Below, piece after piece: positions 7,609 through 31,299 of a stretch of DNA of 35,637 bases. The stretch spans positions 1-35,637 of the IMG/VR virus record IMGVR_UViG_3300010885_018341; one strand, given 5' to 3'. The DNA comes from a virus. The position numbers were made by a program, and so were the translations under genes. Below the pieces are notes generated by a model. That model was not told where the DNA came from. It ran no database searches and saw nothing but the letters and a program-made list of their open reading frames with translations. The stretch's first letter is position 1. Each line of letters begins with the position of its first letter.

Positions 7609-7998
7609 ATGACAACTCTTTACCGCGGTTTTAGCACAATCAGTAGGCCTTTTGGGCCATATAGTCTAACAGACAATGATTTAATTGTTCAAGATCTATT
7701 GAATAACCTTAGTATCCGCAAAGGTGAAAAACTAATGAATCCAGATTTTGGGTGCATTGTGTGGGATAGGTTGTTTGATCCACTAACTGAAGGATTAAAG
7801 TTAGAGATAGTTACCAATGTAGAAACAATTATCAAAAGTGATCCTAGACTAGCGTTTGTAAAGGATATTATATTACAAGAATCTCCTGATGGGCACGGTA
7901 TTCTTCTGGATTTTACAGTGAAATTCTCCTACACTGACCAGTCTGCTAATCTCAGTCTTAAATTTGATAGTCAAAGCCAAAAACTAGCTTTACTATAA
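7609..7998 (+). CDS. 25: Baseplate wedge protein gp25
   Basis: A 129-residue member of the GPW/gp25 family. The signature runs DLIVQDLLNNLSIRKGEK, LMNPDFGCIVWDRLFDPL and a C-terminal beta part ending in SLKFDSQSQKLAL. The family lies in the inner ring of the baseplate and contacts gp6 and gp53; it is conserved in phage tails, R-pyocins and type VI secretion (TssE). The length is that of the family. It sits between the spike and gp6, a common order in T4-like phages of aquatic bacteria. A moderate ribosome site (AGGT) lies 12 bases before the ATG. No promoter box of the window's type precedes it, so it is probably transcribed from 1519. Confidence 0.92.
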   Translation: MTTLYRGFSTISRPFGPYSLTDNDLIVQDLLNNLSIRKGEKLMNPDFGCIVWDRLFDPLTEGLKLEIVTNVETIIKSDPRLAFVKDIILQESPDGHGILLDFTVKFSYTDQSANLSLKFDSQSQKLALL

Positions 7999-8042: not shown

Positions 8043-11000
8043 ATGACTGCTAGCACACGACAAAGTAACCTGTTTGCCTTACAAGATTGGAAAACCCTCT
8101 ATACCACCTTCTCGCAGGCTGACTTTCAAAGCTACGATTTTGAAACCATGCGTAAGGTTATGGTGGATTATATCCGCACCTATTATGCTGAAGATTTCAA
8201 TGACTTTGTGGAAAGCAGCGAATTTATTGCTTTATTAGATTTAATTGCATTCACTGCTCAGAGCACTGCATTTAGAACTGATCTCAATGCGCGAGAAAAT
8301 TTCCTAGACACAGCTGAACGCACAGACAGTGTGTTAAAGTTGGTGAAACAGTTGGGTTACCAACCTAATCGCAACAAAGCAGCAAGTGGTGTATTGAAAG
8401 TTACAAACATCAGTACTACTGAATCACTTACTGATGTAAATGGTGCTAACCTTGCCAACACTCGCATCTATTGGAACGACACTGCTAATCCAAATTGGTA
8501 CAGTCAGTTTGTACAGATAATCAATGCTAGTATTGGCGGCAGCCGTGTGGGTAAACCCTACAGCAGTAAGAATATAAATGGTATCCTTACCGAACAATAT
8601 AATATTTCGTTGCCCACCACAACAGTGCCTGTGTTTAAGTTTGCCACCACACTTGATCAACAGAACGTACCATTTGAAGTTGTTAGTTCTTCATTACAAG
8701 GCACTGATAATATCAGCGAGCAAGCCCCAGGTATGCGTGGTGAATTTGGCATGCTTTACCAAAATGACGGCCAAGGCAACAACAGTACCAATACTGGTTT
8801 CTTTTTAATGTTTAAACAAGGCACAACTGTTGCGCAGGATTTTAACATTGTTGAACGCATACCTAACCGCACCATTAACATAAACACTGACAACATCAAC
8901 AACGAAGACATCTGGCTTTATGACTTAACAAGTGGAAACCTAACCACGCTTTGGAAACAGATAGCTGGTATCTACAGCAACAGTGCTATCTATAGCGGTG
9001 TTGGCAAAGGAATCAGAACACTGTATAGTGTTGCAACCCGCGCAAATGATCAGATAGATCTAGTATTTGGCGATGGCGTATTTTCGGATATTCCTCAAGG
9101 CAACTATCGTGTGTTTTACCGCACCAGCAACAACAGCACCTATCGTATTAGCCCAAGTAATCTTAGCAGTGTGTTGATTACAATACCCTATCTCAATCGC
9201 CAAAACCGAATTGAAACGCTTAGTTTAACTGTGGCATTGCAATACACTGTGAGCAATGCTAGTCGTAGAGACCTGTTGCCTGAAATCAAACAGAAAGCAC
9301 CGCAAGCATTTTACAGCCAAGGAAGAATGGTTAATGGAGAAGATTATAATATTTTTCCATACACCCAATACAGCGACATTGTTAAGATAAAAGCAGTTAA
9401 TCGTTATAGCACTGGTACTTCGCGCGGTCAAGAGATAAATGACCCCACTGGCAAGTACAGCAGTAGTAACCTATTTGCCAGCGACGGTGTGTTTTATAAA
9501 GAAACCACACAGAAAACTTTTAACTTTACATTTAATACACGCAATGATATATTGGAACTATTTGCTAGAGAAATACAGCCGTTGATTAATGGCAGTAAAA
9601 TGAAACAGTTCTATTATGAATATTTCCCCACAATCAATTTCCTTAGTGTGGAAAATGGTGCTACTAGTCCCACTGTATTTTGGAAACAAACCAGCAACGA
9701 CAGTATAAGCAGCACTGGTTTTTTTGTAAGCAGCCAGGATAATGTTTATTCGCTGGGTAATTATAGCACCAGCACCACCAAATACCTTCTAACAAATAGT
9801 CTAGTAAAGTTTGTAGCACCAACTGGATATTACTTTGACAGTGATAATTTGTTGTTTGCCGGTATGCCGACTGCTCCTACGGACCGTACTGTAATTTGGG
9901 CTGGCATTCAGTCAGTGTTGGGCGATGGTACAACTGCAAACTATGTTGCTGGAAGAACTATAGGTGCAGTGGCACTAAGCGAAAATATACCAGCTGGTGC
10001 TATTGTAGACAGTGTGTATCCTCCTTGGAGCACCACGGTGCAGAATAGCACACTTAGTACTATTGCCAATTTAATTTTTAATTACCAAGAATTTGCGCTG
10101 GAATACAACCGCACATTAACCAGCACTTTTAGCGATCCGTGGACAATTATCAGTATTGATAATGCAAATTTATCTATGCCGTTTGACTTTACCACCACTG
10201 GTACCAACGATGACAGCAGTTGGCTGATGTTATTTCAAACTGATGGCACAAAATACACCGTTAATTTCCGCGGCTTAGAGTTTATATTTGGCAGTTCAGA
10301 TGAAATTAAATTTTTAAGTGCTAACTCTAAACCTATATTTGATGCCAGCGTAAACAAATTAGAAACTGATAGCATTACAGTTTTGTCTTATAACAACATG
10401 ATAGATCAACCTGTACGTTTGCGTGTTACAGAAATAATTTTAGAAAACGATGGCTACAGCGACAATAGTAGAATACAAGTGGGGTATCCTGAATCATTTA
10501 CAAGCGGGCTTCCGTTAGATCCAGATATCTTCCGCAAAGTTATCACAGACGGTAGCGTTTACTACAAAGTTTACACAGATAAAGATAATTTAATACGTTA
10601 TGCAGTAATGCCTAATGGATCAGTTTCCAACACCAGTACATATGATACTGGTTTAAAAATTAGCAACAACCAAAATTTATTTCCAGTTGGCAAAGTATTT
10701 TATGCTGCTGCTGACAGTAGGTTTTATGCGATAACAGAAACTGCCAACCGCCAAAAGCAAACCGTGGATGTTAGCAACGAATATCGCGTGTACACCGGTA
10801 GGCAAGACTTGTCGTTCCAATATCGACACAACAGCGCCTATACCACACGCACTGATCCTGCTGTGAGTAACGTTATAGATCTTTATATCCTACAACGCAG
10901 TTATGATGAACAGTTCCGCAACTATGCTTATGATATAACCAACCGAGTGCCTAGACCAGCTGACCCAGACACCACCAGCCTTACCAACAGTTATGAAAAT

Positions 11001-11444
11001 CTCTACAATTATAAAATGATCAGCGATGAATTAATTTTAAATCCCGGAGTGTACAAACTGTTGTTTGGTCCTAAAGCACCGTTGGCATTACAAGCCAATT
11101 TCCAAGTGGTGAAATCTGTCAGCACTACAGTAAGCGACAACGAATTAAAAAGTCGTATTGTTGAAGAAATCAACAACTACTTTTCAATAGAAAATTGGGA
11201 CTTTGGTGATACATTCTACTTCAGTGAATTGAGTGGTTACCTACACAACAAATTAGCAAATATGCTCAACAGTATTGTGCTTGTGCCCACAGACACAAGT
11301 CAACCGTTTGGTAGTCTTTATGAAATACGTAGTCAACCTAATGAAATTTTCATTAGTGCGGCTAATGTGGATAACATTATTGTTACAACTGCTGTATTAA
11401 GTGGTATTAATAATGCTGGTCTTTCGACTGTACAGGTAATCTAA
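8043..11444 (+). CDS. 6: Baseplate wedge protein gp6
   Basis: A 1133-residue protein with the J-type/gp6 N-terminus: LQDWKTLYTTFSQADFQSYD, MVDYIRTYYAEDFNDFVESS, FIALLDLIAFTAQSTAFRTD and NARENFLDTAERTDSVL, then KLVKQLGYQPNRNKAA. The middle holds IDLVFGDGVFSDIPQGNYRVFYR and RRDLLPEIKQKAPQAFYSQG followed by MVNGEDYNIFPYTQY, which are conserved gp6/GpJ landmarks. The C-terminal part (SRIVEEINNYFSIENWDFGD, SELSGYLHNKLANMLNSIVL) is the usual baseplate J end. gp6 forms the iris-like ring that ties the six wedges together. T4 gp6 is 660 residues; the extra length is mainly a beta-rich region at about 520-900, and long forms are typical in cyanophage-type myoviruses. It ends 13 bases before the giant gene. 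Confidence 0.9.
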   Translation: MTASTRQSNLFALQDWKTLYTTFSQADFQSYDFETMRKVMVDYIRTYYAEDFNDFVESSEFIALLDLIAFTAQSTAFRTDLNARENFLDTAERTDSVLKLVKQLGYQPNRNKAASGVLKVTNISTTESLTDVNGANLANTRIYWNDTANPNWYSQFVQIINASIGGSRVGKPYSSKNINGILTEQYNISLPTTTVPVFKFATTLDQQNVPFEVVSSSLQGTDNISEQAPGMRGEFGMLYQNDGQGNNSTNTGFFLMFKQGTTVAQDFNIVERIPNRTININTDNINNEDIWLYDLTSGNLTTLWKQIAGIYSNSAIYSGVGKGIRTLYSVATRANDQIDLVFGDGVFSDIPQGNYRVFYRTSNNSTYRISPSNLSSVLITIPYLNRQNRIETLSLTVALQYTVSNASRRDLLPEIKQKAPQAFYSQGRMVNGEDYNIFPYTQYSDIVKIKAVNRYSTGTSRGQEINDPTGKYSSSNLFASDGVFYKETTQKTFNFTFNTRNDILELFAREIQPLINGSKMKQFYYEYFPTINFLSVENGATSPTVFWKQTSNDSISSTGFFVSSQDNVYSLGNYSTSTTKYLLTNSLVKFVAPTGYYFDSDNLLFAGMPTAPTDRTVIWAGIQSVLGDGTTANYVAGRTIGAVALSENIPAGAIVDSVYPPWSTTVQNSTLSTIANLIFNYQEFALEYNRTLTSTFSDPWTIISIDNANLSMPFDFTTTGTNDDSSWLMLFQTDGTKYTVNFRGLEFIFGSSDEIKFLSANSKPIFDASVNKLETDSITVLSYNNMIDQPVRLRVTEIILENDGYSDNSRIQVGYPESFTSGLPLDPDIFRKVITDGSVYYKVYTDKDNLIRYAVMPNGSVSNTSTYDTGLKISNNQNLFPVGKVFYAAADSRFYAITETANRQKQTVDVSNEYRVYTGRQDLSFQYRHNSAYTTRTDPAVSNVIDLYILQRSYDEQFRNYAYDITNRVPRPADPDTTSLTNSYENLYNYKMISDELILNPGVYKLLFGPKAPLALQANFQVVKSVSTTVSDNELKSRIVEEINNYFSIENWDFGDTFYFSELSGYLHNKLANMLNSIVLVPTDTSQPFGSLYEIRSQPNEIFISAANVDNIIVTTAVLSGINNAGLSTVQVI

Positions 11445-11457
11445 GAGGTAATAACTT

Positions 11458-14400
11458 ATGGCAAAACGTAAAAGTTTGGATTTTCTCCCCCAAATTTTCC
11501 AAACACAGGCTAACCGAAAGTTTTTGAACGCTAGTGTTGATCAACTTATACAGGAGCCTAGCCTCAAACAGGTTTATGGATATATCGGTCAACAAGATCA
11601 CAGTCCCACCTACAAACCTGGTGATTATTATGTGAATGAAAGTGATGATTACAGTCAAGCATACCAATTAGAACCTGGGTTAGTGATTGAAGAAAAAAGT
11701 CGAGGCGGGGATGTATACAGTAAAACCAATGCTTACAACTATGTGGATATGCTTAACCAAATAAGCACTGACGGTGGTTTAGTAAATGATCACAGTAGAT
11801 TATTTGGTACTGAATTTTACAATTACACTGGGTTTGTTGATCTAGACAAATTGGTTAATTATAGACAATATTATTGGGTTCCCAAAGGACCTAAATCAGT
11901 TGTTATAACAACCAAAACCGGCGACTCGGCTGTGGATCTTAATGATCTTTATGTGCAGCGCATCAGTGACGATAGCAGTGACACCAGCCTGGCACAACCC
12001 ACTACTCGTCCAGGGTATAGTTTCGATAGAGTAAACGGTATAAATCCTATTCTATATCTGGTACGCGGTGTACAATACAGTTTTCACATTAATCAACCAG
12101 GACATAAATTTTATATCCAAACTGAACCAGGAGATGGTACAAGTAGACTTCAGCGCAATATCAACACACGCGATCTATTGGGTATAAGAAATAACGGAGC
12201 TGATGCAGGTGTGGTAAATTTTGCTGTGCCTCTTAAGACAGCACAAGACGCATATTATAATCTAGTAGAAGAATCAATTGTTGTGCATACAGTGACAGAT
12301 CTAAATTACAATCAAATCTACGGTCAAATGTATGATGTGTTTGTGCAACAGCACAGTTTAGATGGTATAACTGGATTTAAATCAGTAGTAAAGCACATTA
12401 TGTTCACTAGCAAGACCGGTTGGCCAGCTAGTATAACCGCTGAACAACGCACTGGTATTTGGCAGTTGCGTGTAAATGCTGTGGGTTTTATAGACTTAAC
12501 TTATATGCAGGATTTTCCTCGTAACCACAAAGTGTTTGTGCAGGAAGGAGAACGTTATGGCCATCTGTATGTTTATAGAAATAGTTTAAATCAAATTGCA
12601 CCACTTCCTACATTAACTGCTGTGATAGATCGTTTGTATTATACTGACAGCGTAAATGGTTTTGTAGGTGAAATACATCTTTTGGATCCAACTGCTGATG
12701 CTGTGTTGGATGTAAATGATATCCTAGGACGAACCGAATACACCAGCCCAAACGGTATTCAGTTTAGTAGCGGATTAAAAGTTAAATTTGATGGTAATGT
12801 TACCCCCCAACAATATCAAAACAATGAATATATTGTGGAGCAAGTGGGCCGCGGTATCCAACTAACTGCTTGGAACCAACTTATAACACCTGAATTATAC
12901 AACAATTATCTTGGCGGTGAATTTAGTTCCGATGGATATGACACCAGTGGATTCGATAGCAATCAAAATAATCCGCAGATTAAAGATTACATTGTAAGCA
13001 ATCGAGCCAGCAGAGATCGCAATGCGTGGGCAAGAGGAAATCGTTGGTTTCATAAAAGCGTTTTAGAATACACCAGTGAGATAAATGGTATTGAATTGGT
13101 GTTGGACGAAAATTTTAGAGCACGTAGACCAATTATAGAGTTTAATCCTAATCTAAAATTGTACAATTATGGTACAAATTATTTGGGGTCTGTCAGTTTT
13201 GTTGATACCTCCACTCCGGATTCGTTAAATCAAATACTGGGTCAAAACAACCTTGCTCTGCACCGCGAATTTGTTACCAAAAACATCACCAGCGACACTG
13301 CGGCCGCAGTTACCATATTACCCTTAAACAGCCTAACACGAATTAAAGTGGGGCAAAGTGTAAGTGGAGATGGTATTGCTGCTGGAACTTTGGTAAAATC
13401 CATAAGCACAAAAAATTCCACAGTGGAGCTGGATAAAGCCATTGTTGCTGACATAGGTGGTGGCAGCACTTTGTTCTTTGGAACCTATCTCACTGACGGC
13501 GCACTGTTGTTAAGCGGAAATACTATTGTGTTTACTGCTGATACTGATATGGAAACCCGTAGAACTATTTACAGAGTAGACAATGTGGTTGCTCAAAGTT
13601 ATCGCAATGCTAATGTATTGATAGAGCAATTTTCAGCAGCTGGTACTTTAAGTTTAGTTGTACAAAACTTTGATCACGTGGCTGTGGGATATGCGTTGGT
13701 GGGTGCAAGCATAGCACCTGGTACTACAGTAAGAGCAGTGGATGTGAATACGCTAACAGTGTATATCAGTCATCCCCTCACAAAAGATGTTCCAGCTGGT
13801 AGCTTTATAACTTTTGATAACACCAGCACACAAATAGTGCTAACGCCAATTGGTCGTGCTGAAGAAAATGACATCATTGTTTCCACTGGTGGTATGACAA
13901 ATCAAGGTCGAGTGTTTTATTTTGCTGATGGTAATTGGGTATCAGCACAACAGAAGATTGGCAGACCGCAAGCACCATTATATTATCTTGAAGATCTAGA
14001 AGGGTTTGCTCTTAACGATAAAACGCGATATCCCAGCAGCAACTTTGCAGGCAGCCGTTTATTTGGATATGCTGAAAGTGAAGTATTTGATAAAGAATTA
14101 GGTACAGGCATACTTTATCAAAACATTGGTGCCATTGGCGATATTGTGTTTGACAATTATTATGAACACAGCACATTTGATTACAGTAGCGATAATCTTA
14201 ACCGTAACCCCACGCACAGTTCAGGTTATGCCATATACGATGATGGCACAAATCATAGAAAGTTAACCAACGGTTGGGTACGTGTACCAGAAAAAACCAC
14301 ACAAAATATTCAATTTATAACCATTGCTGATCCAGTAAACCGTAATAATTTTGAATATGATATAGATGTTACAACCAGTAATCGCATAGATCGAATCGAT

Positions 14401-17400
14401 ATTCGCGTTAATGGAAAAAAATTAACCAGCAACGAATACACTATTATACGTGCTGGTAAGAAAAGTCAGATAAAGTTAACAGTTGATTTAGTAGCAGGAG
14501 ATCGGCTTGCAGTATCCATGCCTGGCACAAACAGTCTTTACACCAACGTCTACAGTATTCCGTTTAACCTTACAAACAACAGTGACAATCTTGCCTTTGA
14601 AACCTTAACATTGGGTGAAATGCGCAATCATGTTATTGCTCTTGCTGATCACAGTTTGGATTTTGCTGGCGAACCAGCTGGTGCAAATAATCTGCGCGAT
14701 ATAAACCTTGTAGACAGTTACGGTAAACTGTTGCAACACGCTGCTGGTATGAGTACACATGCTAAACTCAGTGTTAACCCCAACACCAATCTACCCACAG
14801 CCATACGTTACAACATGTGGGCTTATGGACAATTTAAATTAAAACTTTTAGATCGTATCTCTAATGACGAATTTTCTGACAAGTCTAATCCACGTGCATG
14901 CCTAGATCAAATTTTAGATGACATAAACAGTGTTGCAGCTGAGTCTACTGCTTTTTATTACAGTGACATGATGCCATCGGGTATTCGTTATACATTGAGC
15001 AGTAATCCAGTTGTTAATCTAAACTATCGTCAGTTTAATCTTAGCCGCGATTACGATAATAAAGATAACGATTACCATTCGGTATTGGTTTATTTGAACA
15101 ACCAACAGTTGTGCAAAGGCAAAGACTATACCATCAGCGGTTACATTTTAAGCCTCAACGATGCTGTGGTGTTGTCTCGTGCAGATATGATTGACATTTA
15201 TGAATATGCAGATACTTTGGGTTCTGTTATACCAGCCACACCTACAAAATTAGGATTGTGGCCTGCATATGAACCAGCCATAGAAACAGACAACACCTAT
15301 CGCACTGAAATTAATATCATACAGGGGCACGACGGAAGTTGCAGTCCTTGTTGGGGAGATTATAGAGATCAAATTCTGTTAGAATATGAATTGCGTGTTT
15401 ACAACAATATTTTGAATCCGTTTTTAGACGATAGATTAACTGGTATCGAATCTGTAATGCCGGGTGCATTTCGTAAAACCGCGTACAGCATTGAAGAATG
15501 GACTCAACTTTTAGCACCCAGCTATTTGGATTGGTGTGGGCAATTTAACATCGATGCCTTTACCAACACAAACAGTCTGACAGATCCTTTTAGTTATAAT
15601 TTAAGTCAAGCTAAAGATCGTCTGTTTGGTCAAACAGTGCCTGGTTACTGGCGTGGTGTTTATTTCTATTTCTACGACACTGATCAACCACATACTAAAC
15701 CCTGGGAAATGTTAGGGTTTAGTGTTAGACCGCAGTGGTGGGTTAAACGCTATGGACCAGCACCTTACAGCAGTCAAAATATTGTGCTGTGGCGTGACCT
15801 AGAAATGGGTGTGATATACAACAACGGTAAACCCTACATAGACACACGTTTTGCTAGACCAGGACTAAAAGATATTATACCAGTTGATGCAAGCGGAGAA
15901 TTGCTACCGCCAGAAATCAGCGTTATTGGTAGTTGGAAAGGCATTAATCAAAATTTAAGTTGGCGGGTTGGCGACCAAAGTCCTCAAGAAACAGCTTGGC
16001 GTCGCAGCAGCGGTTATCCATTTGCGGTGCAGTTGGCTTGGGCACTTGCCCGCCCTGCTGAATATTCACAGTTGGCTTTCAACACACGCGATGTAAAACG
16101 CATCGATAACTTGGATCAAATAGTGGATGTGCGCACAAATAGTCGCCGTTTCACTGCTGCACTCACCAGTAATGCTGGATATATTCCAGGCACCAACGTG
16201 TGGATACGCGATCAACTGTTGAGTCGTAATCTAAATCTCGACACCAATTGGCGCGATTTTGTGCAGCACAGCTATCTAAATCTTGTTTATAAATTAGCTG
16301 GCTACAGTGACATTCCGCATCTGCAAATCATAGGCGATCAGGTTAGCCCCAATACCACCACCAGTAACATTGTAATACCTACCGAAAACTATGACCTAAT
16401 GTTTACCAAGAGCGCACCCATATCACGGGTAGTTTACAGTGCGGTGATTGTACAAAAAGTTAAAGAAGGTTACCGTATATTTGGATTTGATACAACTAGA
16501 CCCTACTTCCTAGTGTACACCAGTAGACAAAATAACAACAGTTTTGCCATTAGTGTGGCCAAAGAATCTGCTGTCATCTACAACGATGGTCAAGATTATG
16601 TTACCACTTTTCCCTATGGTACAGTGTTTGTTAACCGTCAGCAAGTGATAGATTTTTTAATCAGTTACGGTCGTTGGCTTACTGCCCAGGGATTTGCATT
16701 TGACGATGTGTTGGGCGATTACAGTACCACACAGGATTGGATATTGAGTGCTAAAGAATTTTTATTCTGGAACCAACAAAATTGGGGATTGGGCACAACC
16801 ATTAGTTTAACACCAATGGGGTCCACTGTTAAATTTACAAGCCCTTATGGTGCAATAGACACCATAAGCAATCGCAGCGATTATACTCGTGTGATGGATA
16901 GTAGTGGTCGCACACTTAAAGGCACTGATTATGCAGTGTATAGAGAAGGCAATAGTTTTGAACTTATACTTAAAAATAGTAATAACGGTATCCATCTGAT
17001 AGATGTAGCTGTTGTGCAATATGAGCACACATTGGTGTTGGATAACAAAACAGTATTCAACGACCAAATTTATGATCCAGTGTTGGGTAACCGTCAGTAT
17101 AGATTGCGTGTGCAAGGTTACAAAACACAGGATTGGGACGGAAGTTTGTATGCTCCCGGTTTCTTGGTAAACACCAAAGCTATTGAACCTTGGCAAGCCT
17201 ATACCGATTACTATCGCGGCGATATAGTTACACACAAGAATCATTATTATACTGCAAACCAATTTACCCCAGGTACAGCTAGATTTCACACTAATAATTG
17301 GTACGAGATATCCGGCGATCATGTGCATAAGAAATTAATTCCTTCACCTACATTTAATGCAGCCCAATTCAAAGGGTTTTATGATGTAGACAGTCAGGAT

Positions 17401-20400
17401 CTAAATGTAACAGCAGATGCACTTGCACGACATTCAACTGGATTTGGTCCTAGGAATTATTTTAACAGTCTTGGACTAACCACCATTAGTCAACACAAAT
17501 TCTATCTGGGTATGTTAAAACAAAAAGGCACAGAAGCAGTGTTACGTGCTTTCCAACGTGCTCGCTTGCATGACCAACAGAATGAAATAGCTGTAAACGA
17601 ATTGTTTGCAATAAAAATGCATTCGTTTGGTAACCTAGGTCAAGAGCAACTTTATGAAATTGATTTAGGGCAAAGTTTTAGTGTTAATAATCAATATCCA
17701 ATAAAATTTTTGAGACCAGGAGAAACAGTTGGTAATGCTACCAACGACGTTGCTGCTAAAGATCTCATACAGATACCAATCAATTATCAAGCTGATATAT
17801 TTGCTAATGATATTGTGCAAAAAACCATCATACCCACAGCGGGCCCAGTTCGTTCAGATGAAATAAACGCAACTGTGTTTAACATACAAAAGATATATGA
17901 AATAGACAGTCTTAATCGTGTGCTGGGAGAAGGTAGCCGTATCTGGGTAGCAAGCGATCTTAGCGGTCAATGGGCTGTGATGCGTGTTACACTTACAGAT
18001 AGAATCTATGTGGTGCAAGCTAGTCAGACTGCACCCAACGAACTCACCTTTACAACCAGCGTACCACATGGATTTGCAGTGCTGGATACAGTTATGTTAC
18101 ACACCGCATTAATCAAAGCCAATACAGGTAACAGTAGCAACACCATTGATCTTGGCGGATTCTATAAAGTAAGTCGTGTGGAGAACCTCAGCTTTAGTGT
18201 TAGAGTAAAAAGCAAAGCCAATGTTGGTACCATTGCACTGAACAATCTAGTTTATAAATTAGTAAACGTGCGTTTTGAATCACGTGAAAAATTTGCACAA
18301 TTTACACCAGCGCGAGGTTGGAAAACCGGAGACACTGTTTATATAGACAGTAAAGAAGTATTGCAGAATGTTGATGTGTGGCAGCTAAGTGATGCTAGAT
18401 CACCTGCGTTTGTTACCAGTGCTGATCAATTTGGTAAACAGGCTGTGGTGGGAGTGCAGCAGAATTTTGCTATCGTAAGCAGTCCTAACAAAAATACAAC
18501 TGGGCAACTGTATCTATACAGTAAGAACAGTGTTGATCAATGGCATGAAGCAATTAAATTAGATCCGCCAAACAATCTTGTAAGACAGTTTGGATCTGCA
18601 CTTAATATCAACAACCGCAACGGTATTGCTATCAGTGCCCCCTCCAGTTACGGTAAAGGATTAGTCTTTGTTGCACAAGTAACCAACGAAAACCTGCTAT
18701 TCACACAAGCATTACAATATGATTTTGTAGAAGATAGCAACTTTGGTAGCAGTGTTGCTATGAGTGCTAACGGCGATTGGTTGTATGTTGGTGATGACAC
18801 CAATAATAGGATTTTTGTATACTATTACAAAACTGTACGTGAAGAAATTACGCAACTTATTGGCGACGGTATTGTAACAAGTTTTGTTTATCCTAGTACT
18901 GCACAAGGACTTAATTTGGGTGCTAACGATTTTAGTATTTTTGTTGATAACAAGATACAAGTGCCTAATCAAGATTATATTAGACTTACCACCACTGATG
19001 TGTTTAATTTCATAGTAGCACCACCAGCTGGTAAGCGTGTGGAAATACGTTACACCAGCTATTACAAATTACAAAGTGTGTTTGAAACTGACAATCCAGA
19101 TGCTGTATTGTGGGCAAATCAATTGACTACAAGTGGTGATGGTCGCACAGTTGTTGTGGGAGATCCCAATGGTATTGTCAGTGTATTAGAAAGACAACAA
19201 TTTCAATTCATAAGTTCTGCAGCGCAAACCAAATTTGTGTTGCCTTATGGTATTGGACCAAACTACACTGACACACTCAGCACCACAGAAACCTATTGGA
19301 GTGATGCGCAGGTTTACATAGATAAAACACCAGTTACTGCGTTTGTTATAGAAGATCAAACTGGTATTCCTACATTGGTTTTGGATGTTCCAGTAACTCA
19401 GGGAAAGATTGTAAAAGTTATAGGATTCAACCTTATAGAACTAGAAACTTTAGCAGCACCGGTTTATCAACCCACTAATCAATTTGGTAGTCAAGTTCAG
19501 ATTAATGTAGAAGCAACCGATATATTTGTTAGTGCTCCAGGATATAATGTTACCAATCGTCAAAATGGAGCAGTGTTGCGCTACAAAAATAGTATACTTG
19601 CAACCAGTGTGGCGTTGGGTACTACTCGTAACCCATCTGTGGTTGCTGGTAGTAAAATGTATATTAATGATTTTAATGTAACATTCCGAGCAGGCACTAC
19701 TGCAAACATTATTAGCAGCATCAATGCTGCAAATATACCTGGTATTAGTGCTTCGCTTGTTGCAGGGTGTCTGCAGATACAACTGGATACCAGCATTACA
19801 GACCAAAAATTAACCTTACGAGACGACACCGCTGGTATAGTGGATTATATGGGCTTTGTGAATTATGAATATGTGGAATTAATAACCAGCCCAACCAATC
19901 AAGACACTGAAGAATTTGGTGAAAATATAGCATTGGATCCCGCTGGTGAAGTGTTGTTAGTTGGTGCCACACTAAGCGATAATCAGATAATAACCAGTTT
20001 CGATGGAGGTATTACCACTTGGGATAATCGCACATTAATTGAATTAAAAGACACTGTGTATCGTAGCGGTAGTGCGCATGTTTATGAATACCAAGCTGGC
20101 ACAACTGGTAAATTTGTACATGCAACCACACTTACAAACAGTAGTATAAGCAGTCTAAGCAAGTTTGGAACTGCTGTAGCATTGAGCGCACAGTGGATGT
20201 TTATTACTGCTCCCAACGGTTATGTGAACAACCGCGATCAGGGTGTGGTGTATATCTATAACAACAGCACTGGTGATAGAGTATGGCAAGTTAAACGCAG
20301 CGCACCTGCTAACTACAACAGCAGTGTTATCAAAAGTGCATTCTTGTATGATCGTAGGAAGCGTATAAAATTAGCTAATCTCACAGTGTTGGATCCAGTA

Positions 20401-23400
20401 CATGGTATTTTTGCACCACGTGCAATGGAAAACATAGATTACACCATCAACTATGATCCAGCAGTTTACAATAATGCACCTAGTGCAGCTGGATTTAATA
20501 CAGATATGCGCAACGTGTGGGGCGAACAACAGGCGGGCAAAATCTGGTGGGATACCAACAGTATAAAACTCTACGACAATAACCAAGGCAATTTATTGTA
20601 TAGATTAAACAACTGGAGCATGGGTTTTGCCAACAGCACTGTTGCTGTATATCAGTGGATGGAAAGCAACTACGTGCCAAATGAATGGTACAAGCACAAT
20701 CCAGATCAACCGCCGTTGTACCAGCTGCAGAATGTTTATAGTAGTTTGACAAAAGTAGATAACGAAACTAATCAAACGGTTACACGCTATTATTTTTGGG
20801 TACGCAATGGTAGTATAAACAATCGCAACACCCGCGAAATTGAAAATGCTATTGCAACTGTTCGTCAACAATCTGAACCCTATTTGGCTGTGTTGGATAC
20901 CAATGCAGTGGGCATCTATAACGCAGAAAAAATAATAAACAGCGATATCAGTTTAATATTCACAACACGTTCTAATGAACAAACAAAAACTCATGATGAG
21001 TGGCACCTCATAACTGACAATACTGATATCGGTGCGCCAATGGAATTTTATACTGTATTAAAAAACAGTTTAGTTGGGCAAGACTCAAGTGGTAGACAGG
21101 TACCAGATCTCCGCCTGCCAACAAAACAACGCTACGGTACTGATATTAACAGACGCCAAAGCCTGTTTGTTAAATTAAGTGAAGCTCGCAAATTATTTGT
21201 AAATGAACTTAATAATATTGCTGCGGAAATTCCACTGGCATTGATGAGATCAACTGCAATAGACGCACTAAAAGTTAAAGCTACACCTCCTGCAGCAACT
21301 GAATATTTGCTAGCTGTGGACAACTTAGACCAACTTGGTTGGTTAAATTTGGATGCTTACCGCGCAGATGATCGCATTTTTGTAGTCAGTGATCGGGATA
21401 ATCAAAATCGCTGGAGTCTTAAACAATTACATGGCGATAGATTAGTAAACAAATTTTGGCAAACCATTAAAGCTGAAACCTATAATTTAGAGAAATATTG
21501 GAGCTATGCAGATTGGTATAGTGCCAGTTACAATAGCAAAGTAACTTCCACATACACCATTGACAGTGAAAAAGATCTAACCAGTCTTGTTTTGAATATC
21601 AACGATACTGTATGGATAAAAAACAGCGTGGATGGAGGTTGGAAACAGGTTGCAGTTAAATCCAGTGGATTAGAATTAGTAGCACAACAAAGTGCAACCA
21701 TACAATTTAGCGCAGCGTTGCACGATATAGATCAACTGGGTTTTGGATATTCTACCCGGGGGTTAGACACTGTAACCTACAGTCAAGATGCTAATATAGA
21801 ATTTGGATTGCTAGTTGATGTGGTTGTTGACAAACTGTTAACAGATGAATACCGCTCAAAACTGCGCGGATTAATAAAAACATTAATACGCTATTGTATG
21901 GAACAACCCATAGATGCAGATTGGATAATGAAAACCAGTCTTGTGGATATAGATCACCGGGTGCGTGGTTTAGATCAGATACCGGTTTACCTACCAGACA
22001 TTAGTCAAAGTGTCAGTGATTTTTTCCTAGAAGCTAAACCCTTCCACACTGTGCTTAAAGAATATAAAGCTCGTTATGACAATGGAAACGCTCCTGAGCC
22101 AGCAACATTTGCTGTAACTGACTTTGATCTACAACCCTACTACAATTTAGTTAACAAACAGTATCACAGCCCGCAGTTGGGAGATCAACAGGATGTAACT
22201 CCGCTAACCCTACCTGTTTACCAACCTTGGGTAAAAAATCACACCTATGGTGTAGTGGACACCAACATTATTCAACCAGGCATTGGTTATAGACCAGACG
22301 GTATTGCAGTGGTTATTACTGGTGACGGGACTGGCGCAAAAGCTCATGCTGTGGTTACAGACGGAAGTGTAACAGATATTATTATAGATGCGGCGGGATC
22401 TGGTTATACCACAGCTGAAATATTAATTTTAGGAGCCAACACAATATTAGCCATTGCGAAACCTATTTTAGGTTCAGCTAAACCTCGCACATTCAACACA
22501 ACTATTAAATTTGACCGTTATCGTTATCACAATATAATACAAGATTGGAAACCCAATACTCAGTACACCGTTGATACTGTAGTAGTGTGGAGTGATCCTG
22601 TTTATCGTGTAACTACTGCACACACCAGTGGAAACAAGATTGATTTGTTGAAATTTAAACAGTTGATTATTAAACCTTGGCAGCGCAACACCAGTTATAA
22701 CTTAGATGATATTGTGCTGTACCGTTATAAATCCAAAAACAGCTCTGCTGTTGTTTATCCTTACGTGGTTACAGCAGATTTCACAACTGGGCGTAAACTT
22801 AATGTAACAAATTTACGTACTTTCAGAGGCGAATGGCTGGACAATGCTGCAGATAGAATATGGGCCTACTATGCATCTGCTCCTGGTACTGCTGGTCGAG
22901 AATTGGCACAGTTGATGCGCGGGGTAGGTTATGAGCAGGTTCAAGTACTTGGTCCAGACTTTGATCAACGTGCAGGTTTCGATGTACCCAGTTTTAGTGA
23001 AATTGAATTTGATCCTAATCCCTACGATGCTGATGGTGTAGAAATTATACGTGGACCACAGGCTATTGACACTGTATACTACAGTTTGTTTACAGATCAA
23101 AAATTGGGATTACGACCACAGGACATCAACACTGATGGTGGTAAATTTGTGGATATCTATAGTACCCATGCTCCAGAAGAACTTGTACCCGGTCGAGTAT
23201 TTGACACACTGGATATCCGCGTAAAAACTTTAGCTGCTGCAACCAACTATCCATACGTTAATCCTGATAACCGTATGATGGGTTGGGTTAGTGATGGCAC
23301 AACAACAGTTTATGATTACAGTGGATTGGTAACTGGTGTAAACGTTGATGTCAACAATACTGAATTAATTGTGGTAACCAGCGATCTAGAAGGCACACTT

Positions 23401-25053
23401 ACACCAGATATAGATTACACATTAAATCTGTTTAATCATTCTATCACACTAACAAAACCCATATATGCGGGTTATAGTCTATTTGCTACTATACTAGGCA
23501 GCACTGGTTATAAAGAAACTGTAAATCAAAACTACATGGGCGATGGATACAACAAACGTTTCCTACTACCAGACGTAGGATTTACAGACATAAAACAAAT
23601 CTATATTAAAATAGATGGAGTATTAAGCAACTTTAATACTTACGAAACCAGTACTAATCCTATTGGCATTATTGTTGTATTGAATACTGCACCAGCCAAA
23701 GGCAGCTATGTACACATAAGAGGTTATAATTATGACGTGGGCACACGTGCATTTGCTAGAATTACCCAAGAAACAATAGCGTCTACCCCCGGATTAGCAG
23801 ATTACTTGGTGGCTGATTCAGTGGGGGTAAGCGAACCCTATGCAGCTTACAGCATAATCCGTGTGGGGCAATATTACCCAACCCCAGCACAGCAAACTTA
23901 TTATACAGCAGATGGTATTAATGTCAACTACCCGTTAAATTCCTATAAAATGGATGTTGTTAGTAGTATTGCTGATGGCAACATAACGGTTACAGTGGAT
24001 AATGTGTTGCAACAACTTGGGGTAGAGTACAATGTTATAAGATCAGGTACTGATTATCCGGTAGTGCAATTTTTAACACCGCCCAATGCCAACAGTTATA
24101 TTATCATAAGTGAAAACAGCAGTGCTGAATACACATTAGCTAATGGAAACAATCTTAAATTTAATGATCCAACCTTATTTGTAAACAGTGATAACATATC
24201 AGTAATAAGCATTAATAATCACAATATGATAGATTTTAAAACCGTAGTTTATCGTGTAAAATACTTTACTGGTAGCAACACTGTAGACGAAGGATTTGAT
24301 GGGCCGGATGTGGGGTTGGATACTACTGGATTTGACAACAATATTTTCAATATGAAAATTGATATACCGTTCCCGTTACCAGAACCAGTAACTAATCCAG
24401 CAGATCTTTGGGTTACAGTTAACGGAGATCTACGCTTGCCATATATTCATTATCGATTGGTAAACAATACCCACATTATTTTTGACCAAGCTATGGCTGA
24501 TTCAGATGTTATCGTCTTACGAGTATTTGCTCGTCGTGCTGTAAACAAAGCAATCGAATTTAGACTGTTTAAAGACCTACAGGACAGTTGGGAACACCTA
24601 AGAATTAATCCCAAACGAACCACGCGGTTAACAGAAGATTTGTACATGACTGACCGTTGGATTTATGTGGAAAATATAGAAAACCTTTATGATCCAGATC
24701 CATCTGCTAACAATCCTGGTGTTATATTTGTTAATGGGGAACGTATCATTTACGGTGTTAAAGACAATCACAATTCACGTGTGGGCAACCTGCGACGCGG
24801 TACAGCTGGAACTGGTACTCCCGGGCTGCATAAAAAAGGCAGTGTTATTACTGAAGCTAACGCTATTGAACGAATACCCAGTGGCGATAACAGCAGTATC
24901 AGTGTAGACCATGCTTCAAATTTCTCCACACGTATTGGAACTGTGTTGGTACCAGCCAATAACAAACTAATACAAAATCGTATTTGGCAAGGTTATACTG
25001 AAACACTCGGTGAATCTCTAACAATACAAGCACGTTTCTTAAAAGGTTACTAA
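11458..25053 (+). CDS. Giant virion structural protein (baseplate/tail), multi-domain, 4531 residues
   Basis: One uninterrupted frame with a good ribosome site (GAGGT, 10 bases upstream). The N-terminus (FLPQIFQTQANRKFLNAS, SPTYKPGDYYVNES, YQLEPGLVIEE, VDLDKLVNYRQYYWVPKGP) is a type I know from structural proteins of T4-like marine phages. Conserved blocks follow: LGLWPAYEPAIETDNTY with IQGHDGS and RDQILLEYELRVYNNI (about 1265-1315), and WRRSSGYPFAVQLAWALARP (about 1515-1540). Domains seen: paired VG..V.G..IA.GT.V modules (630-677 and 742-785); a CBM5/12-like W..Y..GDIV....YY module (1910-1952); a beta-propeller with inserted domains (2322-2942); a GSGY module (3610-3655); two more W..NT.Y..D.VV modules (3693-3732, 3738-3782); four copies of a GDG beta module; and a C-terminus with VFVNGERIIYGVKDNHNSRV and LRRGTAGTGTPGLHKKG. 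T4 gp7 occupies this place after gp6, but I see no convincing gp7 similarity. The position suggests a peripheral baseplate or fibre-network component. Confidence 0.75.
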   Translation: MAKRKSLDFLPQIFQTQANRKFLNASVDQLIQEPSLKQVYGYIGQQDHSPTYKPGDYYVNESDDYSQAYQLEPGLVIEEKSRGGDVYSKTNAYNYVDMLNQISTDGGLVNDHSRLFGTEFYNYTGFVDLDKLVNYRQYYWVPKGPKSVVITTKTGDSAVDLNDLYVQRISDDSSDTSLAQPTTRPGYSFDRVNGINPILYLVRGVQYSFHINQPGHKFYIQTEPGDGTSRLQRNINTRDLLGIRNNGADAGVVNFAVPLKTAQDAYYNLVEESIVVHTVTDLNYNQIYGQMYDVFVQQHSLDGITGFKSVVKHIMFTSKTGWPASITAEQRTGIWQLRVNAVGFIDLTYMQDFPRNHKVFVQEGERYGHLYVYRNSLNQIAPLPTLTAVIDRLYYTDSVNGFVGEIHLLDPTADAVLDVNDILGRTEYTSPNGIQFSSGLKVKFDGNVTPQQYQNNEYIVEQVGRGIQLTAWNQLITPELYNNYLGGEFSSDGYDTSGFDSNQNNPQIKDYIVSNRASRDRNAWARGNRWFHKSVLEYTSEINGIELVLDENFRARRPIIEFNPNLKLYNYGTNYLGSVSFVDTSTPDSLNQILGQNNLALHREFVTKNITSDTAAAVTILPLNSLTRIKVGQSVSGDGIAAGTLVKSISTKNSTVELDKAIVADIGGGSTLFFGTYLTDGALLLSGNTIVFTADTDMETRRTIYRVDNVVAQSYRNANVLIEQFSAAGTLSLVVQNFDHVAVGYALVGASIAPGTTVRAVDVNTLTVYISHPLTKDVPAGSFITFDNTSTQIVLTPIGRAEENDIIVSTGGMTNQGRVFYFADGNWVSAQQKIGRPQAPLYYLEDLEGFALNDKTRYPSSNFAGSRLFGYAESEVFDKELGTGILYQNIGAIGDIVFDNYYEHSTFDYSSDNLNRNPTHSSGYAIYDDGTNHRKLTNGWVRVPEKTTQNIQFITIADPVNRNNFEYDIDVTTSNRIDRIDIRVNGKKLTSNEYTIIRAGKKSQIKLTVDLVAGDRLAVSMPGTNSLYTNVYSIPFNLTNNSDNLAFETLTLGEMRNHVIALADHSLDFAGEPAGANNLRDINLVDSYGKLLQHAAGMSTHAKLSVNPNTNLPTAIRYNMWAYGQFKLKLLDRISNDEFSDKSNPRACLDQILDDINSVAAESTAFYYSDMMPSGIRYTLSSNPVVNLNYRQFNLSRDYDNKDNDYHSVLVYLNNQQLCKGKDYTISGYILSLNDAVVLSRADMIDIYEYADTLGSVIPATPTKLGLWPAYEPAIETDNTYRTEINIIQGHDGSCSPCWGDYRDQILLEYELRVYNNILNPFLDDRLTGIESVMPGAFRKTAYSIEEWTQLLAPSYLDWCGQFNIDAFTNTNSLTDPFSYNLSQAKDRLFGQTVPGYWRGVYFYFYDTDQPHTKPWEMLGFSVRPQWWVKRYGPAPYSSQNIVLWRDLEMGVIYNNGKPYIDTRFARPGLKDIIPVDASGELLPPEISVIGSWKGINQNLSWRVGDQSPQETAWRRSSGYPFAVQLAWALARPAEYSQLAFNTRDVKRIDNLDQIVDVRTNSRRFTAALTSNAGYIPGTNVWIRDQLLSRNLNLDTNWRDFVQHSYLNLVYKLAGYSDIPHLQIIGDQVSPNTTTSNIVIPTENYDLMFTKSAPISRVVYSAVIVQKVKEGYRIFGFDTTRPYFLVYTSRQNNNSFAISVAKESAVIYNDGQDYVTTFPYGTVFVNRQQVIDFLISYGRWLTAQGFAFDDVLGDYSTTQDWILSAKEFLFWNQQNWGLGTTISLTPMGSTVKFTSPYGAIDTISNRSDYTRVMDSSGRTLKGTDYAVYREGNSFELILKNSNNGIHLIDVAVVQYEHTLVLDNKTVFNDQIYDPVLGNRQYRLRVQGYKTQDWDGSLYAPGFLVNTKAIEPWQAYTDYYRGDIVTHKNHYYTANQFTPGTARFHTNNWYEISGDHVHKKLIPSPTFNAAQFKGFYDVDSQDLNVTADALARHSTGFGPRNYFNSLGLTTISQHKFYLGMLKQKGTEAVLRAFQRARLHDQQNEIAVNELFAIKMHSFGNLGQEQLYEIDLGQSFSVNNQYPIKFLRPGETVGNATNDVAAKDLIQIPINYQADIFANDIVQKTIIPTAGPVRSDEINATVFNIQKIYEIDSLNRVLGEGSRIWVASDLSGQWAVMRVTLTDRIYVVQASQTAPNELTFTTSVPHGFAVLDTVMLHTALIKANTGNSSNTIDLGGFYKVSRVENLSFSVRVKSKANVGTIALNNLVYKLVNVRFESREKFAQFTPARGWKTGDTVYIDSKEVLQNVDVWQLSDARSPAFVTSADQFGKQAVVGVQQNFAIVSSPNKNTTGQLYLYSKNSVDQWHEAIKLDPPNNLVRQFGSALNINNRNGIAISAPSSYGKGLVFVAQVTNENLLFTQALQYDFVEDSNFGSSVAMSANGDWLYVGDDTNNRIFVYYYKTVREEITQLIGDGIVTSFVYPSTAQGLNLGANDFSIFVDNKIQVPNQDYIRLTTTDVFNFIVAPPAGKRVEIRYTSYYKLQSVFETDNPDAVLWANQLTTSGDGRTVVVGDPNGIVSVLERQQFQFISSAAQTKFVLPYGIGPNYTDTLSTTETYWSDAQVYIDKTPVTAFVIEDQTGIPTLVLDVPVTQGKIVKVIGFNLIELETLAAPVYQPTNQFGSQVQINVEATDIFVSAPGYNVTNRQNGAVLRYKNSILATSVALGTTRNPSVVAGSKMYINDFNVTFRAGTTANIISSINAANIPGISASLVAGCLQIQLDTSITDQKLTLRDDTAGIVDYMGFVNYEYVELITSPTNQDTEEFGENIALDPAGEVLLVGATLSDNQIITSFDGGITTWDNRTLIELKDTVYRSGSAHVYEYQAGTTGKFVHATTLTNSSISSLSKFGTAVALSAQWMFITAPNGYVNNRDQGVVYIYNNSTGDRVWQVKRSAPANYNSSVIKSAFLYDRRKRIKLANLTVLDPVHGIFAPRAMENIDYTINYDPAVYNNAPSAAGFNTDMRNVWGEQQAGKIWWDTNSIKLYDNNQGNLLYRLNNWSMGFANSTVAVYQWMESNYVPNEWYKHNPDQPPLYQLQNVYSSLTKVDNETNQTVTRYYFWVRNGSINNRNTREIENAIATVRQQSEPYLAVLDTNAVGIYNAEKIINSDISLIFTTRSNEQTKTHDEWHLITDNTDIGAPMEFYTVLKNSLVGQDSSGRQVPDLRLPTKQRYGTDINRRQSLFVKLSEARKLFVNELNNIAAEIPLALMRSTAIDALKVKATPPAATEYLLAVDNLDQLGWLNLDAYRADDRIFVVSDRDNQNRWSLKQLHGDRLVNKFWQTIKAETYNLEKYWSYADWYSASYNSKVTSTYTIDSEKDLTSLVLNINDTVWIKNSVDGGWKQVAVKSSGLELVAQQSATIQFSAALHDIDQLGFGYSTRGLDTVTYSQDANIEFGLLVDVVVDKLLTDEYRSKLRGLIKTLIRYCMEQPIDADWIMKTSLVDIDHRVRGLDQIPVYLPDISQSVSDFFLEAKPFHTVLKEYKARYDNGNAPEPATFAVTDFDLQPYYNLVNKQYHSPQLGDQQDVTPLTLPVYQPWVKNHTYGVVDTNIIQPGIGYRPDGIAVVITGDGTGAKAHAVVTDGSVTDIIIDAAGSGYTTAEILILGANTILAIAKPILGSAKPRTFNTTIKFDRYRYHNIIQDWKPNTQYTVDTVVVWSDPVYRVTTAHTSGNKIDLLKFKQLIIKPWQRNTSYNLDDIVLYRYKSKNSSAVVYPYVVTADFTTGRKLNVTNLRTFRGEWLDNAADRIWAYYASAPGTAGRELAQLMRGVGYEQVQVLGPDFDQRAGFDVPSFSEIEFDPNPYDADGVEIIRGPQAIDTVYYSLFTDQKLGLRPQDINTDGGKFVDIYSTHAPEELVPGRVFDTLDIRVKTLAAATNYPYVNPDNRMMGWVSDGTTTVYDYSGLVTGVNVDVNNTELIVVTSDLEGTLTPDIDYTLNLFNHSITLTKPIYAGYSLFATILGSTGYKETVNQNYMGDGYNKRFLLPDVGFTDIKQIYIKIDGVLSNFNTYETSTNPIGIIVVLNTAPAKGSYVHIRGYNYDVGTRAFARITQETIASTPGLADYLVADSVGVSEPYAAYSIIRVGQYYPTPAQQTYYTADGINVNYPLNSYKMDVVSSIADGNITVTVDNVLQQLGVEYNVIRSGTDYPVVQFLTPPNANSYIIISENSSAEYTLANGNNLKFNDPTLFVNSDNISVISINNHNMIDFKTVVYRVKYFTGSNTVDEGFDGPDVGLDTTGFDNNIFNMKIDIPFPLPEPVTNPADLWVTVNGDLRLPYIHYRLVNNTHIIFDQAMADSDVIVLRVFARRAVNKAIEFRLFKDLQDSWEHLRINPKRTTRLTEDLYMTDRWIYVENIENLYDPDPSANNPGVIFVNGERIIYGVKDNHNSRVGNLRRGTAGTGTPGLHKKGSVITEANAIERIPSGDNSSISVDHASNFSTRIGTVLVPANNKLIQNRIWQGYTETLGESLTIQARFLKGY
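18421..20283 (+). other. FG-GAP-type beta-propeller region inside the giant protein
   Basis: Residues about 2322-2942 hold seven blade-like units: QFGKQAVVGVQQNFAIVSS, QFGSALNINNRNGIAISAP, NFGSSVAMSANGDWLYVGD, NQLTTSGDGRTVVVGDP, QFGSQVQINVEATDIFVSAP, EFGENIALDPAGEVLLVGA and KFGTAVALSAQWMFITAP. Most are followed by a G.VY.Y strand (GQLYLYSK, GAVLRYKN, SAHVYEYQ, GVVYIYNN). This is the FG-GAP/integrin-propeller pattern. Units 3-4, 4-5 and 5-6 are separated by other domains. Blade count is by eye. Confidence 0.65.
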
Positions 25054-25821: not shown

Positions 25822-26754
25822 GTGACTTATTATGTAAGAAATCAAGATGGCACTGTTGCAATTACACTAGCTGATGGTGTATTGGAAACCAACACCAGTT
25901 TAACTCTAGTTGGTAAAAATTATCCCACTTATGGTGAAATCTTTAATCAAAATTTTTATAACTTGCTGCACAACTTTGCTTATACTACTGAACCGCAGAA
26001 TGCTGTAATAGGTCAAATTTGGTTCGATGCTGGTAATCTTGCGCTTAAAGTTTATAGACCAGGCGCTGATATTAATTATTGGCAACCATTAGCTCACATT
26101 GTTCAAAGTTCACTAGCGCCTGCTAACACAGAAGCTGGAGATCTATGGTGGGATACAATAAATTATCAATTAAAAATTAGAAACAACAATGCTTGGGTTA
26201 CTATTGGTCCGCAAGTTACTAATCCTGGCGAGTTAAGAACAGATAATCCTAGCTTTGTGTTACAGGTACAGGGTACAGAAACACTGTTAGCCAGCAGCAA
26301 TGGGCAGGTAAATTTCCCATACAATGCTGTATTCCAAGGCACATTGCGTAAAAATAACTTTGGTGCAGCTAGTTTTGTTGGGTCAGGGTTAGGCAGTTAC
26401 GATGTGTTTGTGCCTGTCAACAAAGAAATAAACATATCTGCAGCTTGGCAAGAAACTGGTATAATCAGTGCCTTTGTTTGCCCTGCAGATGGAATTTATG
26501 AAGTAAGTGGTTGGATGCAAACATTGGGCGGAGCTAGTGGGTATGATGCTCACAGTATTATGTTCTGGCAAAATCAATTTGATACTAACATTAGAGCACA
26601 AAACAACCATCCAGTTGGGCAAAGTCACACACTATCTGTGCATGGATATTTGAAATGTGCTGCTGGTGACACGTTACAATTCGTTTACAGCGCAGATGCT
26701 GATGCAGAAATTGCTGATCAAAACAGTGGATTCAGCATTAGGCTAGCTGGTTAA
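25822..26754 (+). CDS. Short tail fibre with shared N-terminal adaptor and C1q-like head
   Basis: A 310-residue protein starting at GTG, placed 7 bases after GAGGA; no closer ATG fits and the N-terminus MTYYVRNQDGTV matches its paralogues. Residues 1-90 (TSLTLVGKNYPTYGEIFNQN, LLHNFAYTTEP, GQIWFD, LKVYRPG) are the adaptor also found in the proteins at 26783 and 32387. Residues 104-139 (GDLWWDTINYQLKIRNNNAW) are a second shared segment. Residues 178-310 resemble a C1q/TNF-like jelly roll: FVPVNKEINISAAWQETG, FVCPADGIYEVSGWM, AAGDTLQFVYSADADAEI and a final FSIRLAG. Such heads often sit at the receptor-binding tip of phage fibres; that role here is inference. It ends the unit before the promoter at 26760. 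Confidence 0.75.
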   Translation: MTYYVRNQDGTVAITLADGVLETNTSLTLVGKNYPTYGEIFNQNFYNLLHNFAYTTEPQNAVIGQIWFDAGNLALKVYRPGADINYWQPLAHIVQSSLAPANTEAGDLWWDTINYQLKIRNNNAWVTIGPQVTNPGELRTDNPSFVLQVQGTETLLASSNGQVNFPYNAVFQGTLRKNNFGAASFVGSGLGSYDVFVPVNKEINISAAWQETGIISAFVCPADGIYEVSGWMQTLGGASGYDAHSIMFWQNQFDTNIRAQNNHPVGQSHTLSVHGYLKCAAGDTLQFVYSADADAEIADQNSGFSIRLAG

Positions 26755-30580: not shown

Positions 30581-30889
30581 ATGGCAATATCTAGCACAAC
30601 CCTTACCACCACACCTGCCCCTGTGTATGTTAGCACTGGCGATTCTGTGGTTACACTAATGTATTTTTGCAATACTGATACTGAAACGCAATCAATTAAT
30701 GTGTATCTAGTACCAAATATGGCATCTGCTAGTGATACTAACATAATTTACAAAAATTATAGTATTACATCCGAAGATACCTTTGTAGTAGACAAAGAAA
30801 AGATAATTTTAAGCAATGGCGATGCTGTATATGCAAATGCTAATGTTAGTGCTAAAATCACTACAACAGTTGGATATGTTGGTTTATAA
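30581..30889 (+). CDS. Small beta-rich structural protein, function unknown
   Basis: A 102-residue protein (MAISSTTLTTTPAPVYVSTG, VVTLMYFCNTDTETQSINVY, IYKNYSITSEDTFVVDKEKI, ILSNGDAVYANANVSAKITT). The pattern of strands with 'VT.MYFCN......NVYLVP' and 'EKI.LSNGD.V.A' is that of a single immunoglobulin-like or jelly-roll domain found as a small protein among phage fibre genes. AAGGA lies at a good distance from the ATG. Its stop overlaps the next start as TAATG, so the two are probably translated together and may act together at the tail. I cannot assign a T4 counterpart. Confidence 0.7.
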   Translation: MAISSTTLTTTPAPVYVSTGDSVVTLMYFCNTDTETQSINVYLVPNMASASDTNIIYKNYSITSEDTFVVDKEKIILSNGDAVYANANVSAKITTTVGYVGL

Positions 30890-31299
30890 TGGGTAGATTT
30901 TTAAAAAACGATAGGATCACAAGCGGAAGCACAGCTATTCAGTTGCCATTGGGGTCAACTGCAGATCGACCTGCTAGTCCACAAAACGGTCAGATAAGAT
31001 TCAATACTGACACGCAGCGATTCGAAATTTTCTATAACAACTGGCAAACCATAGCCATAAACGGCACAGTGCCTTTAACAAAAGATACCTTTGCTGGCGA
31101 TAGTACAGAAACAAGATTTATTCTTTCAAAAACTACCACTGATACCAAAACTATTCTGGTATTTGTAGGCAATGTCCATCAAAACCCTGATGATGCTTAC
31201 AGTTTAGATAACAATTATATTGTATTCATAACACCTCCACCACTTGGTCAATCTGTTGTAGTTTATCATGGCTTCGCAAGCACTGACGCAAATGGCTAA
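30889..31299 (+). CDS. Small fibre protein with GDG beta module
   Basis: A 136-residue protein. Residues 1-55 hold a module PLGSTADRPASPQNGQIRFN then TDTQRFEIFYNNWQTIA, a P..GQIR.N.....E.Y...W unit common in fibres. Residues 65-128 hold the GDG-type beta module shared with the giant protein and the next gene: FAGDSTETRFILSKT, ILVFVGNVHQNPDDAY, NNYIVFITPPPLGQSVVVYH. It may be a small accessory fibre, or a broken-off segment of a longer one; the following protein carries the same two modules in the same order after its own N-terminus. It starts inside the preceding stop codon. Confidence 0.75.
   Translation: MGRFLKNDRITSGSTAIQLPLGSTADRPASPQNGQIRFNTDTQRFEIFYNNWQTIAINGTVPLTKDTFAGDSTETRFILSKTTTDTKTILVFVGNVHQNPDDAYSLDNNYIVFITPPPLGQSVVVYHGFASTDANG

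Follow-up and report, generated by a model that had tools for sequence, protein, structure and literature searches.

The window analysed here, a 35,637-nucleotide stretch of viral DNA, encodes a giant tail protein in which a first-pass annotation placed seven FG-GAP-like units with whole modules inserted among them. The locus raises the question of whether these units form a single propeller, where in it the modules sit, and whether such an assembly could be a host-binding head. The units had been assigned to nucleotides 18421–20283, which correspond to codon 2322 through the end of codon 2942 of the open reading frame (ORF) at 11458–25053 (Table 1).

Gene neighbourhood of the giant tail protein

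The 35.6-kb virus record is a piece of the tail operon of a T4-like giant myophage, with a gp5-like hub/lysozyme gene, gp25, gp6 and the giant ORF. The giant protein is a member of PHROG 10938 (E = 9.6e-284), described as 'virion structural protein' and assigned to the category 'head and packaging'. The order gp25, gp6, giant gene also occurs in the cultured jumbo phages Phosso, Cassandra, Atu_ph07, Sharanji and K64-1; in K64-1 (L007, NC_027399), RefSeq splits the first half of the giant gene into many tiny ORFs where there is one open frame of 3,326 residues. In phage CBB the homologue, gp236, comes directly after gp6. Mass spectrometry of CBB virions detected 21 peptides of gp236 (PMC5259590). 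From the gp25/gp6 synteny and the CBB mass spectrometry we infer that the propeller-bearing giant protein is located in the baseplate here, and the position of its gene suggests the slot of T4 gp7. Alignment of three conserved regions of the giant protein with T4 gp7 (hhalign, a single T4 sequence) gave E-values of 0.2–0.5, which do not establish homology. When the scaffold regions were compared by sequence with the PDB, no baseplate protein came up; one search gave only chitin-binding modules and weak tail-fibre matches, and the others gave chance-level matches. The CBM5/12 segments that the giant protein carries outside the propeller (approximately residues 1911–1950, and 3697–3726) are present in cultured relatives as well.

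Several fibre-like genes follow downstream. Three ORFs (25822–26754, 26783–28675 and 32387–33922) have a common N-terminal module of approximately 80–130 residues (33–38% identity) and differing C-terminal parts, as if several fibres were fitted with one attachment domain. The products of two further genes, 33951–34814 and 34867–35637 (the latter running off the end), have an N-terminal Mtd_N (major tropism determinant) domain (Pfam E-values of 2.6e-6 and 6.2e-7, respectively); the first has a C-terminal Peptidase_S74 chaperone domain and the second a collagen-like stretch.

Table 1 Features of the giant tail protein and its neighbours in the window
Feature	Nucleotides	Strand	Residues	Basis
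gp25-like baseplate wedge protein	7609..7998	+		Sequence matches
gp6-like baseplate wedge protein	8043..11444	+		PHROG 10646, 3e-268
Giant tail protein (4531 aa), directly 3' of the gp25-like and gp6-like wedge genes	11458..25053	+		ORF; PHROG 10938; synteny
Most conserved scaffold region, including CBM5/12-like segment near 1911–1950	15241..17547	+	1262–2030	Sequence comparison
Small β region directly upstream of propeller	17833..18357	+	2126–2300	
Complete seven-bladed FG-GAP propeller (predicted)	18373..20295	+	~2306–2946	AlphaFold2; VIA-align against integrin α
Blade 1	18424..18561	+	2323–2368	Model; blade profile, 24.7 bits
Blade 2	18580..18717	+	2375–2420	Model; FG at 2378
Blade 3, strands A–C	18736..18831	+	2427–2458 (C 2451–2458); D 2535–2543	Model; 37.9 bits
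Blade 3 C–D insert, GDG-type β module	18832..19059	+	2459–2534	Model; family profile 1.5e-30 (window included)
Blade 4, strands A–C	19099..19197	+	~2548–2580 (C ~2573–2585); D 2657–2665 (within 2651–2665)	Model; 6.7 bits
Blade 4 C–D insert, diverged module of the blade 3 insert family	19198..19425	+	2581–2656	Model; profile
Blade 5, strands A–C	19477..19587	+	2674–2710 (C 2704–2710); D 2804–2809	Model; 28.9 bits
Blade 5 C–D insert, flagellin-IN-like, 93 aa	19588..19866	+	2711–2803	Profile 6.3e-30 (window included)
Blade 6	19909..20133	+	2818–2892	Model
Blade 7	20155..20301	+	2900–2948	Model; Pfam FG-GAP_2, 2891–2934
Conserved block directly downstream of propeller	20290..22077	+	2945–3540	
CBM_5_12 (chitin-type carbohydrate-binding module)	22546..22635	+	3697–3726	Pfam 6.4e-09

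Predicted fold of the propeller

Blade profiles trained on relatives only, with the window left out and a threshold of 5 bits per unit, recovered six units in the window protein, starting at residues 2323, 2427, 2555, 2675, 2818 and 2901. The remaining unit, blade 2 (residues 2375–2420), has no profile of its own and was recognized by the FG at 2378 and by the structural model, which brings the count to the seven units first proposed. When the region was shuffled 1,000 times, 974 shuffles contained no unit and 22 contained one, with a best score of 9.8 bits. Pfam FG-GAP_2 matches all 46 members of the alignment (window included), with one above-cut-off match in the window protein, at residues 2891–2934. 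A PDB search with the alignment profile, using sequence alone, found integrin α4 (E = 1.3e-10).

The AlphaFold2 prediction for residues 2286–2955, made from 46 sequences, is a single domain of seven four-stranded A–B–C–D blades (pLDDT of 90.1 and pTM of 0.92), with neither separate sandwiches nor fewer than six blades. VIA-align superposes approximately 345 residues, spanning residues 21–661 of the model, on integrins αM, αL and αX (Z-scores of approximately 35–38, 2.5–2.7 Å; 33–38 for the integrin α matches taken together). Integrin α propellers are single seven-bladed rings, and this whole-length superposition therefore indicates that the units close into one ring, as the first-pass annotation had supposed. 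Long WD40 double propellers dominated the ranking given by Foldseek, although their TM-scores were poor; for the integrin match we therefore rely on VIA-align and on the sequence profile. One closed, integrin-α-like, seven-bladed propeller is thus well supported by prediction. The interval 2322–2942 holds the seven units, but the ring extends over residues 2306–2946, approximately, with the closing strand and the last strand just outside the original bounds. Blade 6 has a conserved 33-residue B–C loop (residues 2838–2870) with a TFD..T.FD motif. No Ca2+-binding A–B loop of the DxDxDG type is present in the propeller region of the window, and we therefore call the fold integrin-like and make no claim of an integrin; a looser form of the Ca2+-loop pattern occurs in 5 of the 46 alignment rows, mostly within a stretch that is not part of the blades.

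Modules within blades 3, 4 and 5

Three modules are inserted in the ring, as had been noted, but they do not lie between units 3 and 4, 4 and 5, and 5 and 6: the strand order in the model (C, module, D) places them inside blades 3, 4 and 5, in the C–D loops. The fold and the positions of the inserts are predicted with high confidence. A GDG module had been claimed for two of the loops. Related β modules do occupy blades 3 and 4, their families aligning with an E-value of 1.8e-10 (hhalign), but the blade 4 copy has lost the GDG letters, and part of it is modelled at low confidence (model residues 314–325). The same GDG-module family is found in two tail-fibre-like genes downstream (ORFs 30889–31299 and 31343–32359). 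For the blade 5 insert, the likeness to the flagellin IN motif comes from relatives: the Pfam family Flagellin_IN is recognized in two relatives in the alignment (best E-value of 5.5e-5) but not in the window itself.

In β-propellers, the C–D and A–B turns lie on one face of the ring and the B–C and D–A turns on the other. As all three inserts are in C–D turns, they should, on this topological argument, leave the ring from a common face.

One variable site for the propeller cassette

With the propeller as query, tblastn gave no match among cultured phages at 1e-3, and a single-sequence scan of IMG/VR gave none. Only the conserved block that follows the propeller led to relatives, a scan of IMG/VR with it finding more than 560. 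Three scans, each of 80 loci, provided 159 distinct proteins with both anchors, to which a score filter was applied for unit counting. In this sample, which was picked by similarity to three queries and is not a natural frequency, the number of FG-GAP units between the anchors is bimodal: at least four in 97 proteins (mode, six detected), none or one in 60, and intermediate in two. The 159 proteins have no FG-GAP units outside the propeller site, and none of the cultured relatives examined has the propeller.

The distance between the anchors is 203–1,533 residues in cultured relatives, compared with 911 in the window. The small β region upstream of the propeller is found in propeller-bearing relatives and partly in cultured phages, and the downstream block is common to propeller-less cultured phages too. 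The giant proteins of the Rak2-like phages, PA5oct and Atu_ph07 (PHROG 10938) have the same gene position and share parts of residues 1–2200 and the block 2942–3560 at approximately 22–39% identity, but their site lacks an FG-GAP propeller, the gap being filled by approximately 100–1,550 residues of other sequence. The site looks empty in Cassandra, where 'VWIDSINSDNDWAVAVV' joins directly to the downstream block. The propeller is a cassette confined to one variable site, at approximately residues 2300–2945 of the giant protein. In Phosso (L002) and Atu_ph07 (L005) the site holds approximately 1,500 residues rich in GSGY..AP.V.I.GGG-type repeats, and a 58-residue piece of the Phosso sequence matches residues 3604–3661 of the window protein.

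On a scaffold tree of 128 proteins (FastTree), which does not separate gain from loss, the presence of the propeller requires two changes when the intermediate rows are left out, compared with approximately 30 for shuffled labels. Blade 2 at first seemed to be lacking in 20 relatives; these are a second lineage with a shifted blade register. Its member L059, folded separately, gives a full ring (pLDDT of 80.4; integrin Z-score of 37.9 over 360 residues, 3.0 Å). L059, like L082 and L062, has CBM_5_12 segments in its propeller region that score above the Pfam cut-off, and the second lineage appears, from profiles and model, to keep the ring but with chitin-type CBM5/12 modules in it.

The six closest relatives of the window (L008–L013) carry approximately 80–250 extra residues between blades 2 and 3, absent from the window, in one or more modules of approximately 80 residues each with the motif 'SLSNFA.GM.V.G.GIP.GT.I'; these lie at the position of the integrin I domain. 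By eye, similar sequence is present near residues 610–800 of the window protein.

Conservation of the insert positions

Loop lengths were compared in 37 colinear sequences (window included) with blades aligned one to one. Inserts of at least 40 residues occupy the C–D loops of blades 3, 4 and 5 in 36, 35 and 35 of the 37, respectively; no other loop holds one in more than six. Together with the model and the structural matches, these statistics bear out the earlier proposal that the propeller is a platform with inserted modules. Because the three positions are filled in 35–36 of the 37 sequences and the propeller changes only about twice on the tree, comparison of the relatives shows that the arrangement is maintained. 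Both observations speak against a pile-up in which recombination between tail genes leaves modules of little function in whichever loops tolerate them. We regard such a pile-up as improbable, even though the GDG family recurs in other ORFs of the window and the closest relatives have extra sequence between blades 2 and 3 where the window has none.

The A–B loop is of near-constant length, and loop lengths outside blades 3–5 are nearly invariant in the colinear set. Among close relatives, identity is 0.40–0.43 in the inserts and 0.39–0.58 in the blades; the inserts do not clearly exceed the blades in variability, and their divergence is weaker than expected for a receptor-contacting surface. 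This modest variability keeps alive a competing explanation in which the propeller is a rigid baseplate block whose inserts dock wedge or fibre proteins and make no host contact. The near-invariant loops favour it too, as do the candidate fibre genes downstream, which need docking sites, and the SU10 nozzle, whose propeller forms the tail body and holds a fibre dock and nozzle domains (PMC9509320). However, the same baseplate protein is built without the propeller in cultured relatives, and the CBM5/12 modules of the second lineage fit glycan binding better than docking. On balance a purely structural hub seems unlikely, although it is the strongest competitor to host binding.

Comparison with known propellers

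Integrin α chains (αM, αL and α4) likewise have seven FG-GAP blades, the whole ring superposing with a Z-score of 38 at 2.5 Å. In integrins αM, αL and αX, the I domain is spliced into the propeller between blades 2 and 3. The splicing of an extra domain into the propeller is a second likeness, and the closest relatives of the window also have a blade 2–3 insert. In contrast, the phage inserts discussed here lie in the C–D hairpins of blades 3–5, the window is without the Ca2+ loop, identity is 15–18%, and the phage protein is not a cell receptor.

Among phage proteins, the SU10 nozzle is a seven-bladed tail-protein propeller that has a fibre-dock loop and, inserted between its blades 2 and 3, Ig-like nozzle domains; it has been compared with the T7 nozzle (PMC9509320). 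It differs in being a podovirus nozzle rather than a neighbour of T4-like baseplate proteins and in the positions and kinds of its inserts, and the passages on it do not mention an FG-GAP type. Domain insertion in tail-protein propellers is thus already known, and the architecture is the norm in the sampled clade (97 of 159 similarity-selected proteins), so that its description as unusual calls for qualification. The C-terminal domain of PhiKZ gp131 (4GBF) is a seven-bladed propeller at the baseplate periphery of a jumbo myophage and has been speculated to bind the receptor (PMC4901313). This is a C-terminal domain and not an inserted cassette, blade inserts are not mentioned in the passage on it, and gp131 gave no match to the alignment profile at E ≤ 1 in the PDB search. 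In the phi11 receptor-binding protein Gp45, as described in the same paper, the propeller is termed a 'platform' within the host-recognition device and is thought to hold a GlcNAc site, but it has five blades, is homotrimeric and is not part of a giant protein. A limited literature search for FG-GAP together with phage tail fibre or baseplate gave no match.

Phage endosialidases contain propeller folds as well (PMC4901313), which might point to an enzyme, or a depolymerase, with surface sugars as its substrate. Such an activity is very improbable for the window propeller: its fold matches are integrin α adhesion domains, and Pfam gave no convincing match to a catalytic family.

Proposed role and implications

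We lean, by a narrow degree of confidence, towards a rigid integrin-α-like ring, carried as a single-site cassette, whose blade 3–5 C–D modules touch the cell surface. The seven-bladed ring would be held at the variable site of the giant protein, near the cell-facing baseplate, and the C–D hairpins of blades 3, 4 and 5 would hold, on one face, small β modules reaching to the cell surface. These modules would probably make weak, multivalent contacts with glycans or surface proteins ahead of irreversible binding, and lineages would retain the ring while swapping either the modules themselves or the blade loop in which they sit. Host binding by the propeller head is a good guess, argued by analogy from the phage precedents, the CBM modules of the sister lineage and the baseplate-wedge neighbours. 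Set against it are the cultured relatives, which infect without the propeller, the only modest variability of the inserts, the lack of the Ca2+ loop and the PHROG category 'head and packaging'.

Propellers in phage tail proteins have precedents in the SU10 nozzle, the phi11 receptor-binding protein and PhiKZ gp131. If the favoured reading is true, phages display small binding modules on the baseplate of a contractile tail by means of an FG-GAP propeller of the integrin type, with three fixed hairpins as the sockets. The giant tail protein of this group, annotated only as 'virion structural protein', has a site at which lineages hold wholly different material, and residues 2306–2946 offer a separable unit for tests of how the phages of this large group, few of them cultured, attach to their hosts. 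More tentatively, and with slightly less conviction than doubt, a large uncultured clade of T4-like giant phages may carry an integrin-like adhesion head in a baseplate megaprotein, with the hairpins as a socket array for exchangeable GDG, flagellin-IN and CBM5/12 modules. If so, lineages would retune their attachment to hosts without change to the scaffold.
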